The translations under genes were made by a program, and so were the position numbers. A DNA stretch of 38,324 nt, taken from contig JALWYO010000117.1 of NCBI GenBank assembly GCA_026992735.1, positions 1 to 38,324 on the forward strand, read 5' to 3'. The notes below the pieces were generated by a model. It searched no databases. It was not told where the DNA came from and saw only the letters and a list, made by a program, of their open reading frames with translations. Of this stretch, positions 9,294-23,210 are shown in pieces. The DNA is from Deltaproteobacteria bacterium. GTDB taxonomy: Bacteria > Desulfobacterota > Dissulfuribacteria > Dissulfuribacterales > QOAL01. Every line of letters begins with the position of its first letter. Position 1 is the first letter of the stretch.

Positions 9294-10439
9294 TCAATAG
9301 TTCTCATCTGCCTCGATCCCGGTCACTTCCGCGGCCTCGAGCCGCTTTTTGTCCATGAGGGACCAAACATAGGCGACATAGGCCAGGACGAGCGGGATGA
9401 GAAAAGCCACGTATGTCATGATAGTTAGCGTGTAATGGGAGCTTGAAGCATTGTAGATGGTAAGGCTCGACTGGAGATCTGCCCTTGAAGGGTAGAACGG
9501 TGTATGGTTAAACCCCGCAGTGAAAAAGACAGACAGGCCCACCAGGACTGTTCCAAGGCCGGCAAACCAGATCCCCTTGTCCTGTTCCTTGAACTTCGCA
9601 GAGATCACTCCAAATATCACCAGAGCAAGGCCAGCCAGCAGGAGCACCAGGACCGGGGGCATTGCAAGCAGGTTCTTCAGGTACTTGAATGCCACCATAT
9701 CGACCTGGCCGGTTGCAGGATCGAAATTGAACCCCTTCATGGTCAGCAGTCCCACAACCACAACCAGCAGGAATGGCAGTGCGGCCAAGAAATTGCTGAA
9801 AACCGCATCCCGTGTCCGCTGTCTGAATGCCTCCATGTCTGAAAAATCTATGTTGTTCAGGAGGTAGAGGGCACCAAGCACCCTGGAATTGAATACGAGA
9901 AACAGGCCAAGGCTTATGTTGAAGATATTCTGCGCTGCTTCCAGACCCCTGAATGGAGTTGTCCAGCTGACCAGGTTGTATTCGTTGAGGACAAAGTTGG
10001 ACCCTGTGAAAAATGTTCCTACTGCAGTTCCTATGAGAAGGATACCTATCGAGCCGTTAATGAACAGGAATACCTCGTAACCCAGGCTGCCCAAGATGTT
10101 TCCTGGTTTTTTCCTGTATTCGAAGCTGACTGCCTGCACGATAAAGGTGAAGAGTATTGCCATCCAGACCCAGTAGGCACCGCCGAAGCTTGTTGCGTAA
10201 AACTTGGGAAATGCTGCAAAAAGAGCGCCGCCGAAGAGCACCAGGGTAGTGAATGTAAGTTCCCACTTGCGCCCTATGGAGTTGATAATGAGGGATTTTT
10301 CAGTCTCATTCCTGCCAAGCTGCCATAACAGGGTCTGCCCACCCTGGACAAAGGTCAGAAACAGAAAGAGCGAGCCTACTGTCGAGGCAAGAATCCACCA
10401 GAGTTCCTGTAAAACAGTCTGATCAAGGCTTCCTATCAT
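9294..10439 (-). CDS. cydB: cytochrome bd quinol oxidase subunit II
   Basis: A 381-residue CydB with about nine hydrophobic helices. The stretch TLVLFGGALFAAFPKFYATSF and the following VSFEYRKKPGN are characteristic. In E. coli a WDGNEVW segment precedes the GGALFAA motif and holds Asp58 of a proton path; here the aligned stretch reads RKWELTF, so the acid is Glu. CydB supports CydA in the membrane complex that oxidises quinol and reduces O2 to water with high affinity. It starts one base after the cydA stop, and its AGGAGGTGA ribosome binding site lies inside the cydA 3' end, so translation is coupled. Confidence 0.95.
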   Translation of the reverse strand: MIGSLDQTVLQELWWILASTVGSLFLFLTFVQGGQTLLWQLGRNETEKSLIINSIGRKWELTFTTLVLFGGALFAAFPKFYATSFGGAYWVWMAILFTFIVQAVSFEYRKKPGNILGSLGYEVFLFINGSIGILLIGTAVGTFFTGSNFVLNEYNLVSWTTPFRGLEAAQNIFNISLGLFLVFNSRVLGALYLLNNIDFSDMEAFRQRTRDAVFSNFLAALPFLLVVVVGLLTMKGFNFDPATGQVDMVAFKYLKNLLAMPPVLVLLLAGLALVIFGVISAKFKEQDKGIWFAGLGTVLVGLSVFFTAGFNHTPFYPSRADLQSSLTIYNASSSHYTLTIMTYVAFLIPLVLAYVAYVWSLMDKKRLEAAEVTGIEADENY

Positions 10440-10440
10440 C

Positions 10441-11979
10441 TTATTTCACCTCCTCGGGGCCGATCTGGATCTGCTTGAGCATGATTTTTACCTCTGCAAT
10501 GAGAAGCAGGGTAAACGTGGCAAGAAACATGAAAAAGGTGAGCTTAACGTTATCAGGTGCTATGTCCGTGCGGGCTATGGACACCGGAAGCAGGCCCTGT
10601 ATGGCCCAGGGCTGCCTGCCGACCTCGGCCACGACCCATCCTGCCTCACCTGCCATGTATGCCAGGAAAAAGAACAGGACACCAAAGGGATAAAGCCAAG
10701 TCGCCTGTTCAACAGTGCCCCTTGCAGTAGTAAAAAGATAGAGAAGAAATATGAGGATCATGCCTGTGCCCACTGCTACCATCATGTGAAAGGAATAAAA
10801 GGTGATGGAGACCGGAGGAACTGCATCTTCCGGGGCCTTCAGAAAGCCGTATCCGAAATAGTTCCTGTACTTGTTGAATTCGTCCAGGGCGGCAGACGCC
10901 TTCTGGATATCCCCCGCCTTTTTGGCATTCTTGTAGGCGGCAAGTGATTTGGCAGCGCGCCTGCCCATTTCTATCTTCTGTTCTGCCCCGGTTATCCCCC
11001 TTTCTTGGTTTCCAAACACGAGGTCGTTTATTCCGGGCACGAAGCTGCCAGGCTGCCTGTTTGCAAGGATGGAAAGCAGGCCCGGTATCTTGAGCGAGTA
11101 CACGAACGGCTCATGGAAATCACCCGGTTTTTTCATGCCGTTTACGATCCCAAGGGCCACGACAGGTGCGTTGTTGGCCCCGTCCCAGAGTCCTTCCATG
11201 GCCGCAAGCTTCATGGGCTGATGTTTTCCATCCATGAAGGCAGCCTCGTCCCCGGTAAGCCCCAGCAGGAGCGAGGCCAGAAGGCCGAACACAGAGGCAA
11301 CGGCAATGCTTCTTCTGGCCATCAGGACATGGCGCCTCCTGGCAAGATACCAGGATGAAACTGCTATGACGAACAGGGAGGAAAGGGCAAAGCCGGACGT
11401 GGTGGCGTGGGTAAACTTGCTGATGGCATAGGGAGAAAGGATAACGTCAAAAAAGTTGTGCATTTCAAAGCGGGCGGTGTCCGGGTTGAATACCATCCCT
11501 GTCGGGTACTGCATCCAGCCGTTTGCCACCAGTATCCACAGGGCCGAAAGGTTTGAACCGATTGCCACCATCCAGGTTGAAAATAGATGAAAGTCTTTGG
11601 ACACCCTGTTCCAGCCGAAAAACATGACGGCAAAAAAGGTGGCTTCTAAAAAGAACGCCACTATGCCTTCAATGGCAAGGGGCGCACCAAATATGTCGCC
11701 CACCATCCATGAATAGTTGGCCCAGTTAGTGCCGAATTCAAATTCGAGGATGATGCCTGTGGCAACACCGATGGCGAAATTTATCCCGAACAACTTCATC
11801 CAGAACCTGGTAAGCGCCTTCCATTCCTCTTTCCCTGTCTTGACGTAGATGGTTTCAAAAAAGGCGCACAAAAAGGTCAGGCCCAGGGTCAATGGCACAA
11901 ACAGCCAGTGGTACATGGCAGTAAGTGCAAACTGAGCCCTTGCCCAGTTGACCAGGCTTAGATTGACATGCTCAAGCAT
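10441..11979 (-). CDS. cydA: cytochrome bd quinol oxidase subunit I
   Basis: A 512-residue CydA, the heme-carrying subunit. His24 in ALTAMYHWLFVPLTLG matches the heme ligand corresponding to E. coli His19; the AIEGIVAFFLEATF segment carries the two conserved Glu; the SKFTHATTSGF His and the FHMMVAVG Met match the b558 ligands; and GRQPWAIQG closes the conserved C-terminal region. The quinol-binding loop includes KLAAMEGLWD. The oxidase allows O2 scavenging or microaerobic respiration even in otherwise anaerobic bacteria. The ribosome binding site (AGGAGG) lies within the end of the upstream DUF4492 gene, three bases before this start. Confidence 0.96.
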   Translation of the reverse strand: MLEHVNLSLVNWARAQFALTAMYHWLFVPLTLGLTFLCAFFETIYVKTGKEEWKALTRFWMKLFGINFAIGVATGIILEFEFGTNWANYSWMVGDIFGAPLAIEGIVAFFLEATFFAVMFFGWNRVSKDFHLFSTWMVAIGSNLSALWILVANGWMQYPTGMVFNPDTARFEMHNFFDVILSPYAISKFTHATTSGFALSSLFVIAVSSWYLARRRHVLMARRSIAVASVFGLLASLLLGLTGDEAAFMDGKHQPMKLAAMEGLWDGANNAPVVALGIVNGMKKPGDFHEPFVYSLKIPGLLSILANRQPGSFVPGINDLVFGNQERGITGAEQKIEMGRRAAKSLAAYKNAKKAGDIQKASAALDEFNKYRNYFGYGFLKAPEDAVPPVSITFYSFHMMVAVGTGMILIFLLYLFTTARGTVEQATWLYPFGVLFFFLAYMAGEAGWVVAEVGRQPWAIQGLLPVSIARTDIAPDNVKLTFFMFLATFTLLLIAEVKIMLKQIQIGPEEVK

Positions 11980-19334: not shown

Positions 19335-20744
19335 TCAGACCGGATAATGCTGCCCGAGTCTTGGAACATGTGTCTCTGTGGCAGGCAGGGCCTTTTGCAG
19401 AGACTTGGCAAGCATCTTTTGTGCATCCGGCTCTCCATGTACTATAAAGAGTTTTTTAGGACGGGCCTTCTTTGCATAGGCTAACAGGTTGGTCCTGTCA
19501 GCGTGGGCTGAAAATCCATTGATGGTATAAACCCTGGCCCTTACTGCCACAGGCTCTCCAAAGATACGGACCTGGTCTGCGCCTTCTATGATTCTCCTGC
19601 CAAGGGTCCCCTGGGCCTGAAAGCCTACTATTATCAGAGTGGTTGAGTCTTTCCAGAGCAGGTGCTTAAGGTGGTGCTTGATTCTGCCTCCGGTCATCAT
19701 GCCGCTGCCTGCCAGCACGATTTTAGGCCCTGTAACGCCGTGTATCGCCTTTGATTCTTCCACGGTTTCCGTAAAAAACAGGCCTGGAAATTCAAACGGA
19801 GAATGCCTTCTGTCAAAGCGGCCTGATTTGAACATGTGGCAGTAATCGCAGTGTTTTTCATAGATGCGGGTTATGTTTATAGCCAGGGGGCTGTTGAGGA
19901 AGACAGGGATTCTCTTGGAGAGCTTACCTGAGCGCTTCATGTTTCCGATGTGATAAAGCATCTCCTGGGTTCTCTCCAGCGCAAATGTCGGTATCAGGAC
20001 CGTGCCCCTGCGTTTTATGGTGGAAGTTATGGCTTCTTCCAGCTCTTCCACCGAGGCCTCATAAGATTTGTGGTCTCTGTCTCCATAGGTGGATTCCATG
20101 ATAAGAGCATCTATGTCCTTTTCAGGCGGTGCAGGGTCGTCTACAGTGGGCCTGTTGCCGTCACCAAGGTCCCCTGTGAACAGGATTTTCCTGGTTTCCC
20201 CGCGTTTTTCTCTGTATTCCAGGACAATCTGGGCTGAACCCAGGATGTGGCCCGCATCATTGAGATGAAATGTCAGGTTTACATCCGGAGCTATTGCTAT
20301 CTTCCTGTTGTAGGGGACGCCCCTGCGAAACAGGTTCAGGCAGTAATAAACATCTTCTATGGAATACAGGGGTTCTTTCACCTTTATGCCGGCCCTGGTA
20401 AGCCGTCTCTGTTTCCAGACAAACTCTTCCTTGAGTATATGGGCGGAATCCATGAGTATCAGCATGGCTATGTCTGCCGTAGGAGGCGTGCAGTATATTT
20501 CCTTGTCAAAGCCCCTTTTTTTCAAGAGGGGGATCCTGCCGCAGTGATCCAGATGACCGTGGCTTAGTATTAGCCCCTGTACGTTAGAAGGCATGAAGCC
20601 GAATTTGCCGTAATTTAGTTTTTCTATCTCCCATGGTCCTTGGAACTGACCGGCATCCAACAGGAATCTGCGATTTCCTATGGTGAGCATGTGACATGAG
20701 CCTGTTACCGTTTGTGCTGCGCCGAAAAACTGGATTTTTGCCAT
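19335..20744 (-). CDS. beta-CASP metallo-beta-lactamase-fold RNase (YSH1/CPSF-like)
   Basis: A 469-residue predicted RNA-processing nuclease. The metallo-beta-lactamase motif HxHxDH is complete (His62, His64, Asp66, His67 in SHGHLDHCG), followed by the FTGDLGDGNRP Asp motif. The beta-CASP motifs appear as LIPTFALERTQEM, GSGMMTGGRIKHHLKHLL and GFSAHADR, and the last ligand as FIVHGEPDA. These proteins form a bacterial branch related to archaeal/eukaryotic CPSF-73 and RNase J; the exact RNA substrates are unknown. An AAGGGGAAA ribosome binding site precedes the ATG. It is upstream of ispG on the same strand, separated by an inverted repeat. Confidence 0.92.
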   Translation of the reverse strand: MAKIQFFGAAQTVTGSCHMLTIGNRRFLLDAGQFQGPWEIEKLNYGKFGFMPSNVQGLILSHGHLDHCGRIPLLKKRGFDKEIYCTPPTADIAMLILMDSAHILKEEFVWKQRRLTRAGIKVKEPLYSIEDVYYCLNLFRRGVPYNRKIAIAPDVNLTFHLNDAGHILGSAQIVLEYREKRGETRKILFTGDLGDGNRPTVDDPAPPEKDIDALIMESTYGDRDHKSYEASVEELEEAITSTIKRRGTVLIPTFALERTQEMLYHIGNMKRSGKLSKRIPVFLNSPLAINITRIYEKHCDYCHMFKSGRFDRRHSPFEFPGLFFTETVEESKAIHGVTGPKIVLAGSGMMTGGRIKHHLKHLLWKDSTTLIIVGFQAQGTLGRRIIEGADQVRIFGEPVAVRARVYTINGFSAHADRTNLLAYAKKARPKKLFIVHGEPDAQKMLAKSLQKALPATETHVPRLGQHYPV

Positions 20745-20896: not shown

Positions 20897-20916
20897 GTCC
20901 TAATTAACGGGATCAA

Positions 20917-21013
20917 CTCGTTGGGGGAGCCTGGGGGGACCAGGCTGAGAGGTCGGCTGATCCGCTGACGACTCCTGTACCTGATCTGGGTAATTCCAGC
21001 GTAGGGAAGCGAC
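20917..21013 (+). ncRNA. TPP riboswitch (THI element)
   Basis: The conserved thi-box features are present: GGGGGAGCC, GCTGAGAGG, the P4/P5 arm with ACCTGATCTGG then TAATTCCAGCG, and the closing TAGGGAAGCG. P1 forms between TCGTT (20918-20922) and AGCGA (21008-21012). Binding of thiamine diphosphate represses the downstream thiC-thi4 operon. A strong terminator follows 30 bases later, indicating control by premature termination. Confidence 0.96.
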
Positions 21014-21041
21014 TTTTGATTTGAAATATTGCAGCATGGTC

Positions 21042-21076
21042 AAAGCCGTCTCCAGCAAGCTGGGGATGGCTTTTTT
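21042..21076 (+). terminator. riboswitch expression-platform terminator
   Basis: AAAGCCGTCTCCAG (21042-21055) pairs with CTGGGGATGGCTTT (21060-21073) through a 4-base loop, and six Ts (21071-21076) follow. It lies between aptamer and thiC, so it is the off-state terminator. Confidence 0.9.
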
Positions 21077-21134: not shown

Positions 21135-22433
21135 ATGGCTTACACATTATTACAGGAACTTAGAAATGGCAGGATTCCCGGCGGGCTGGAAGAGGTTGCC
21201 AGAAAAGAAGGCATCAGGCTGGATCTCCTGGTTTCCAATATCCTTCGGGGATTTGCCGTGGTGCTTGGTTACAGGACAGGCCGTGGGACCATGGTTGTTG
21301 GAAGAGATGTCTCTACCAAGGTTAATGCCAATATCGGGGCAAGTACGCTTACTTCATCACTGGAAAACGAGCAGAAAAAGCTCAGGGCCGCCATCAGGGC
21401 AGGCTCAGATGCTGTAATGGATCTTTCCCTGTCTGACAACATACCGGATATAAGGAAGATGGTGCTTAATGAATCCAATGTGCCCATTGGTACCGTGCCT
21501 ATCTATGAGGCAGCAACCATGGCAAGGCACAGGCGCGGTGCAGTTGTAAAGCTGGATGCCGGTGAGATGTTCCAGGTTATCGAGGACCAGATGAAGGAAG
21601 GGGTGGATTTTGTCACCGTGCACTGTGGCGTGATAAAGGAGCTTATTGAAAAATACCCTCCAGAGTTTCGCCTAGAGGGCATTGTTTCCAGGGGTGGTGC
21701 GATCACTGCTGCCTACATCAGGGAATCCGGTAAGGAGAATCCTCTTTACGAATATTATGACAGGCTTCTGGACCTGGCTGAGACCTATGACTGCGTATTG
21801 AGCCTTGGAGACGGTATGCGCCCTGGTGCGGTTCATGATGCCTCGGATGCCCTTGAGGTAGGTGAGCAGGAGGTATTAGGCGAGCTTCAGCGACGTGCAT
21901 TCGACAGGGGTGTAATGGCCATGATAGAAGGCCCTGGCCATGTGCCTCTGCATCTCGTGGCAGAATCAGTGAAGAGGATAAAGACATATACCAATGGCGC
22001 GCCACTCTATCTGCTGGGACCGATAGTTACAGATGTTGCGCCTGGCTATGATCACATCACCTCAGCCATTGGTGCAGGTGTCGCTGGTATGTCCGGCGCC
22101 GATTTTATCTGTTACGTCACGCCTTCTGAGCATTTAGGGCTGCCCGGAGAGCAGGATGTATTTGACGGAGTTATGGCTGCCAGGATAGCGGCACATGCTG
22201 CGGATATTGCCAAGGGATTCCCCGGCGCGCTGGAATGGGACCGCAGGATTTCCATGGCCAGGAAGGCCCTGGACTGGGACAGGCAGATAGAGCTTTCCAT
22301 TGATCCTGAAAAGGCCAGGAGAGTGAGGGCTGAAAGATCGGGTGAAGGGGCATGCACCATGTGTGGAGAATACTGTGTTTTCCTCGTGTTAAATGAAAAA
22401 GGGCGTGAGCATAGTCCAGAAGGAGATAAGTAG
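21135..22433 (+). CDS. thiC: phosphomethylpyrimidine synthase ThiC
   Basis: A 432-residue radical-SAM enzyme that rearranges aminoimidazole ribotide to HMP phosphate, the pyrimidine half of thiamine. IEGPGHVPLH and the LGPIVTDVAPGYDHITSAIG region are family hallmarks. The C-terminal cluster motif is Cys407, Cys410, Cys414 (CTMCGEYC, CX2CX3C); the long proteobacterial and plant ThiC has CX2CX4C. The protein also lacks their N-terminal extension, so it belongs to the short clade seen in archaea and anaerobes. ThiC paralogues of the BzaA/B/F type make hydroxybenzimidazole instead, but the TPP riboswitch and the thi4 gene argue for ThiC. Ribosome binding site GGAGG at good spacing. Confidence 0.93.
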   Translation: MAYTLLQELRNGRIPGGLEEVARKEGIRLDLLVSNILRGFAVVLGYRTGRGTMVVGRDVSTKVNANIGASTLTSSLENEQKKLRAAIRAGSDAVMDLSLSDNIPDIRKMVLNESNVPIGTVPIYEAATMARHRRGAVVKLDAGEMFQVIEDQMKEGVDFVTVHCGVIKELIEKYPPEFRLEGIVSRGGAITAAYIRESGKENPLYEYYDRLLDLAETYDCVLSLGDGMRPGAVHDASDALEVGEQEVLGELQRRAFDRGVMAMIEGPGHVPLHLVAESVKRIKTYTNGAPLYLLGPIVTDVAPGYDHITSAIGAGVAGMSGADFICYVTPSEHLGLPGEQDVFDGVMAARIAAHAADIAKGFPGALEWDRRISMARKALDWDRQIELSIDPEKARRVRAERSGEGACTMCGEYCVFLVLNEKGREHSPEGDK

Positions 22434-22436
22434 GCA

Positions 22437-23210
22437 ATGAGAGAGATAGATATAACAAAAGGCATTGTGGAGAGCCATGTCAAAAGCCTGGACAAGGCCT
22501 TGCAGAGCGACGTGGTTATAGTTGGAGCAGGTCCGTCAGGGCTGGTAGCTGGCGGCTACCTTGCAGAAAAGGGTTATAATATCACTATGCTGGAAAAACG
22601 GCTGTCCCCTGGAGGCGGTATCTGGGGAGGAGGAATGGGATACAAGTTCGTCATCATCCAGGAGGAAGCCAGGCAGGTCCTGGAGGACTTTGACATCCCG
22701 TTCAGCAGGTACGGAGACAAGTATCTGAGCGTGGATGCAATAACATTTGCATCAGGCCTGATATACAAGGCCAGCAGCATGGGCGTGAACATTTTCAACA
22801 TTACTGTCTGTGAAGACCTCCTGGTAAGGGAGGGCAGGGTGGCCGGAGTGGTGATAAACAACAGCCTTGCAGAGATTAACCATCTTCCAGTAGACCCGCT
22901 TACACTGGAGGCAAAGGCAGTGGTGGATGCCACTGGTCACGATCACGATGTGGTGCGCACATTTTCCAGCAAGAATGATGTCAGGCTGAATACACCTACA
23001 GGCAAGCCTGTTGGCGAGAGGTCCATGTTTGCCAGCACGGCAGAGGACGCAGTGGTGGAGAATACCTCGGAAGTATATCCCGGGCTGTTTGTATGCGGGA
23101 TGTCAACTGCTGCCGTATACGGCGGTTACAGGATGGGCCCGATTTTCGGTGGCATGCTGCTTTCTGGAAAGAAGCTTGCAGGCCTCCTTGAAGAGGCCTG
23201 CAGCAGATAA
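22437..23210 (+). CDS. thi4: Thi4-type thiazole synthase (sulfide-using type inferred)
   Basis: A 257-residue FAD-fold protein of the Thi4 family, which builds the adenylated thiazole of thiamine from NAD and glycine. The dinucleotide loop is Gly30-Gly35 (VGAGPSG), followed by LEKRLSPGGGIWGGGM, GHDHD and the C-terminal CGM...YGGYRMGPIFGGML. In yeast Thi4 the sulfur comes from a Cys just before an MDP motif; archaeal proteins have His there and use free sulfide. Here the aligned position is Pro151 (NHLPVDPLT), with His149 two residues before. It therefore cannot be the suicide type, and sulfide use is inferred. It starts three bases after thiC; AAGGAG lies in the thiC 3' end. No thiG, thiH, thiS or thiF is visible. 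Confidence 0.92.
   Translation: MREIDITKGIVESHVKSLDKALQSDVVIVGAGPSGLVAGGYLAEKGYNITMLEKRLSPGGGIWGGGMGYKFVIIQEEARQVLEDFDIPFSRYGDKYLSVDAITFASGLIYKASSMGVNIFNITVCEDLLVREGRVAGVVINNSLAEINHLPVDPLTLEAKAVVDATGHDHDVVRTFSSKNDVRLNTPTGKPVGERSMFASTAEDAVVENTSEVYPGLFVCGMSTAAVYGGYRMGPIFGGMLLSGKKLAGLLEEACSR

Follow-up and report, generated by a model that had tools for sequence, protein, structure and literature searches.

The thi4 gene of a deltaproteobacterial contig raises the question of what a proline means at the sulfur-donor position of a Thi4 thiazole synthase, where suicide enzymes carry a sacrificial cysteine and methanogen enzymes carry a histidine. The gene lies in a 38,324-nucleotide stretch of DNA that was analysed as a whole and is called the window here. 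The features on which the answer depends are listed below, with residue numbers of the window Thi4; the Pro clade and the sequence pattern are defined further on.

20913..21024, + strand: TPP riboswitch aptamer (RF00059), 5′ of thiC; cmscan 67.5 bits, gathering score 54.3
21044..21076, + strand: terminator-like hairpin with a trailing T run, separating the riboswitch from thiC; stem −15.3 kcal/mol, putative role
21135..22433, + strand: thiC, phosphomethylpyrimidine synthase, 432 aa; NF009895 547 bits and TIGR00190 519.1 bits, both above cut-off
22437..23210, + strand: thi4, predicted sulfide-dependent ADP-thiazole synthase, 257 aa; TIGR00292 281.6 bits, model matching 7RK0
22881..22883, + strand: codon of His149, the candidate of an earlier note on this DNA; from the translation, His in 17/27 of the Pro clade
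22887..22889, + strand: codon of Pro151, counterpart of Thermovibrio ammonificans Met158; from translation and alignment, the pattern match starting at 22887
22893..22895, + strand: codon of Asp153, counterpart of metal ligand Asp160 of 7RK0; Asp in 91/91 sequences
22938..22940, + strand: codon of His168, counterpart of metal ligand His175 of 7RK0; His in 91/91 sequences
22944..22946, + strand: codon of His170, two residues past the metal ligand His168

Judged by its profile scores, the window protein is a true Thi4. The open reading frame is well above the cut-off of TIGR00292 (148.3 bits), which NCBIfam names "sulfide-dependent adenosine diphosphate thiazole synthase", and scores 248.5 bits with the Pfam Thi4 profile. 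An AlphaFold2 model computed from 67 sequences (window and loci) has a pLDDT of 96.7, and a fold search with this model, which predicts a Thi4 fold, ranks THI4 of T. ammonificans (TaTHI4, PDB 7RK0) first (Z 40.5, 0.9 Å over 256 residues), followed by the methanogen Thi4s (Z 38.2–38.6) and the plant and fungal Thi4s (Z 32.3–35.1).

Residues 148–154 of the window Thi4 read NHLPVDP. The translation agrees with the earlier note that Pro151 directly precedes V-D-P, with His149 two residues before it, and that the only cysteines are Cys125 and two near the C terminus (Cys220 and Cys255). Alignments to 7RK0, 6HK1 and 4Y4M are ungapped around the motif, put Pro151 at the donor position, and leave His149 two residues upstream of it. 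Specifically, Pro151 pairs with the residue preceding V-D-P in 7RK0 (NHLM-VDP there, NHLP-VDP in the window), while the methanogen enzymes 6HK1 and 4Y4M have His at this position. The note's central observation, that neither Cys nor His occupies the donor position, is thereby confirmed: the window Thi4 has neither the Cys before (M/V)DP of suicide enzymes nor the His before (V/I)DP of methanogen enzymes. The alignment to plant Thi1 (1RP0) has a three-residue gap directly before MDP, so pairing Pro151 with the plant Cys depends on taking (M/V)DP as the anchor and on the mapping given in the literature.

Published work describes other occupants of this position. TaTHI4 has Met158 where suicide enzymes have the sacrificial Cys, its M158H, M158K and M158C variants complement similarly to wild type, and its authors concluded that residue 158 has no role in catalysis (PMC8454699). 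In their survey of 199 non-Cys THI4s, His occupies the donor position in 171 and Pro is listed among the natural residues there (PMC8454699); a 2014 paper reports proline at the Cys205 position in some archaeal homologs (PMC4215014). Proline at the donor position has thus been published at least twice. Among tested enzymes, the available text of PMC8454699 names His, Met, Leu, Tyr and Ser at this position and no Pro-type Thi4, and reports little or no activity in 7 of 23 tested non-Cys enzymes. Our search of the open-licence literature found no tested Pro-type Thi4, and the accessible portions of PMC8825276 and PMC11933848 contain nothing bearing on the donor-position residue.

Variation at the donor position and its tolerance of substitutions are already established, so Pro151 would be an ordinary occupant of it. 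We consider it very likely that the window Thi4 is a standard bacterial sulfide-using, non-Cys Thi4 in which Pro151 is mechanistically unremarkable. The earlier note had proposed a further variant of the sulfide-dependent, multiple-turnover enzyme. As to class, the proposal is probably correct, since a donor position without Cys or His makes the sulfide-using, multiple-turnover class most likely. The step from Pro151 to a further catalytic variant is unsupported, because TaTHI4 has Met158 and its swaps are harmless (PMC8454699).

The metal site of the window Thi4 is intact. TaTHI4 binds its metal through Asp160 and His175 (PMC8454699), and the counterparts Asp153 and His168, as well as Arg232, are present in 91/91 distinct sequences of a sample that includes the best 80 of 306 relatives. 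In the same sample, best 80 of 306 included, the position of Glu53 is Glu in 27/27 Pro-clade sequences and 59/64 others, with Asp in 5/64. Asp171 occupies the position of the adenine-contacting Ser178 of TaTHI4. We infer catalysis with sulfide as donor and multiple turnover as most likely: NAD and glycine would give a metal-bound glycine imine, with the metal held by Asp153 and His168, the glycine carboxylate bound by Arg232, and the ribose bound by Glu53 and Arg55, as in TaTHI4; sulfur would be taken up from free sulfide; and the adenylated thiazole would be released, with many turnovers per enzyme. Residue 151 would be the Cys site of suicide enzymes but chemically idle in sulfide enzymes, and Pro should therefore be as good at 151 as His, Met or Leu.

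The Pro form is widely shared among the window's kin. A first set comprised 30 loci from 41 genomes searched, in which all 22 loci at 68–100% identity (window included) have Pro and all 8 loci at 43–47% identity have His. A sequencing error or a lone oddity is ruled out by the 22/22 Pro sequences. With 22 Pro and 8 His loci, a single order thus harbours two types of Thi4. The Pro type (L001–L022) and the His type (L023–L030) are divided between genomes of this order, and even of one family, a split that suggests transfer or replacement.

Addition of 80 named loci, the best 80 of 306 relatives, gave 110 loci and 91 distinct sequences, with His at the donor position in 55, Pro in 31 and Phe in 5. 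Because the best 80 of 306 were chosen, these counts lean towards the window's kin and do not give frequencies for the family as a whole. On a tree made without the columns of the donor site itself (quick method, SH-aLRT support only), Pro versus the rest requires at least four changes, and Pro would accordingly have arisen at least four times on this tree. The main Pro clade contains 27 distinct sequences with a support of 98, in the sample including the best 80 of 306 relatives. Its members are Thermodesulfobacteriota (records titled Deltaproteobacteria or Thermodesulfobacteriota) and WOR-3 MAGs, and the Pro clade as used here, defined by Pro151 plus His170, is identical to this 27-row tree clade. 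Pro sequences outside it belong to Lentisphaerota (L073, L088), Myxococcota (L075) and FCPU426 (L108). On the same tree, the Thi4 of L035, a contig that binning assigned to Marinilabiliaceae (Bacteroidota), is nearly identical to that of L009 from the window's family, and L035 is probably a mis-binned contig.

Furthermore, a pattern of Pro-(V/I)DP with D-x-TGH after it was found in 13/395 genomes of the phylum, indicating at least 13 Pro-Thi4 genomes, a lower bound because the pattern overlooks Pro-Thi4s in other motif contexts; the reversed-pattern control matched in none of the 395 genomes. Ten of the 13 genomes belong to the same order as the window; of the other three, G205, G263 and G411, the last two proved to carry a Thi4, at 40–42% identity.

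Can another residue stand in for the missing Cys or His? His149, the note's candidate, is unlikely to do so, being non-conserved in the Pro clade, where position 149 is His in 17 sequences, Gln in 5, Gly in 4 and Asn in 1 (n = 27; best 80 of 306 relatives included); with His in only 17/27, it was rejected as a functional substitute. That the enzyme is a suicide enzyme giving sulfur from another cysteine is hardly credible. Cys125 and Cys255, present in 12/27 and 16/27 Pro-clade sequences (best 80 of 306 relatives included), were rejected as donors. Cys220 is invariant in the clade (27/27, from the same best 80 of 306), which would suit a donor, but it is shared by the methanogen enzymes 6HK1 and 4Y4M, whose donor residue is His and which are regarded as catalytic (PMC8454699); across the 64 non-clade sequences, best 80 of 306 included, its counterpart is present in 17, and TaTHI4 has Ser.

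The same Cys220, or His170, could instead replace the absent His or Cys at 151 from a place near the metal, making the Pro clade a mechanistic subclass. His170, in the model part of the loop preceding helix 171–179, is present in 27/27 Pro-clade sequences and 0/64 others, as is Phe198, in the sample with the best 80 of 306 relatives. However, the published swaps show that nothing at the donor position of TaTHI4 needs replacing (PMC8454699), TaTHI4 is active although its counterparts of residues 170 and 220 are Ala and Ser, and the Pro sequences L073, L075, L088 and L108 lack His170. Moreover, the clade is itself defined by Pro151 plus His170, and common descent alone would give any clade some residues of its own. 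We therefore regard such a subclass as improbable. Similarly doubtful is its fuller version, in which coupled changes (Pro151, His170, Phe198, Asn/Ser142 and the invariant Cys220) would remodel the place near the metal where sulfide enters, and His170, instead of a His at 151, would deliver or activate the sulfide. His170 is the sole opening for a novel reading, and we rate it low. A counterpoint to regarding Pro151 as ordinary is that proline restricts the backbone in a way that the three tested replacements (His, Lys and Cys) do not. Pro is invariant in the 27-sequence clade (best 80 of 306 relatives included) while positions 149 and 150 vary, a conservation pattern compatible with some structural selection at 151.

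The gene neighbourhood ties the window Thi4 to thiamin synthesis. The thi4 start lies three bases past the thiC stop, and thi4 would be expressed together with thiC under the TPP riboswitch. A TPP riboswitch is present at 17/20 related Pro loci given to the search, with none found at L043, L051 and L053. thiC lies directly 5′ of thi4 in 24/27 Pro-clade sequences (exceptions L014, L015 and L016), and any ThiC match occurs in the flanks of 4/64 others; these counts come from the sample with the best 80 of 306 relatives and from flanks of varying length, 1.5–2.5 kb at most, searched with the window ThiC, so that distant ThiCs may escape. No match to ThiG (PF05690) was found in the window's genome, which is 98.85% complete, nor in 18 further genomes, making 19/22 Pro-Thi4 genomes with none; matches occur in the other three, strong in G022 and G030 and weak in G024 (E 9.7e-4). 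Since G022 and G030 combine a Pro-Thi4 with a strong match to ThiG, Thi4 is not the sole candidate thiazole source everywhere. ThiE is above cut-off in 8 of 11 Pro-Thi4 genomes searched, the window's own among them, and the ThiM-family kinase (PF02110) in 0/11, with a weak match in G005 and no match in the window's genome.

With thiC and a TPP riboswitch adjacent, ThiE present and no ThiG or ThiM match, the window Thi4 very probably serves as the functional thiazole synthase of its genome. The same context speaks against the protein being a ribose-1,5-bisphosphate isomerase, an activity formerly ascribed to Thi4 homologs of archaea. That name does appear in some PDB records of homologs, but PMC4215014 itself, in its available text, states that the assignment may be incorrect, and we give the isomerase reading almost no weight.

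Two further loci of the window stand out. Genes near the operon that match cytochrome bd oxidase subunits, at 9294–11979 (− strand; cydB above its cut-off, a cydA-like gene below its cut-offs), point to some oxygen handling. A 469-aa MBL/beta-CASP protein at 19335–20744 (− strand) scores 402 bits with the NCBIfam Cas14 (type VII CRISPR) model, whose cut-off is 800, and is probably an ordinary beta-CASP nuclease.

On the reading of the window Thi4 as a standard sulfide-using enzyme, Pro151 leaves the known Thi4 mechanism unchanged. A large natural clade with fixed Pro fits the published view that this residue is dispensable in sulfide-using enzymes. Non-suicide Thi4s are wanted to replace the enzyme of plants, which is costly, and the Pro clade offers an additional, apparently untested group in which to search for them.

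Among known systems, the nearest solved relative is TaTHI4 (44% identity), a non-Cys, aerotolerant enzyme active in E. coli ΔthiG. The two proteins share the NHLxVDP motif, the metal ligands and a donor position with neither Cys nor His, and they differ in that TaTHI4 has Met158, Ser178 and Ala177 where the window Thi4 has Pro151, Asp171 and His170. The methanogen Thi4s (4Y4M, 4Y4N and 6HK1) resemble the window Thi4 in fold, ligands and the Cys at position 220, whereas their donor residue is His and Gly stands where the window Thi4 has His149. The Cys-type suicide Thi4s of yeast, Arabidopsis and Haloferax belong to the same family, and the solved yeast, Neurospora and plant structures have the same fold; the suicide enzymes differ in the sacrificial Cys before (M/V)DP, which is absent from the window Thi4.
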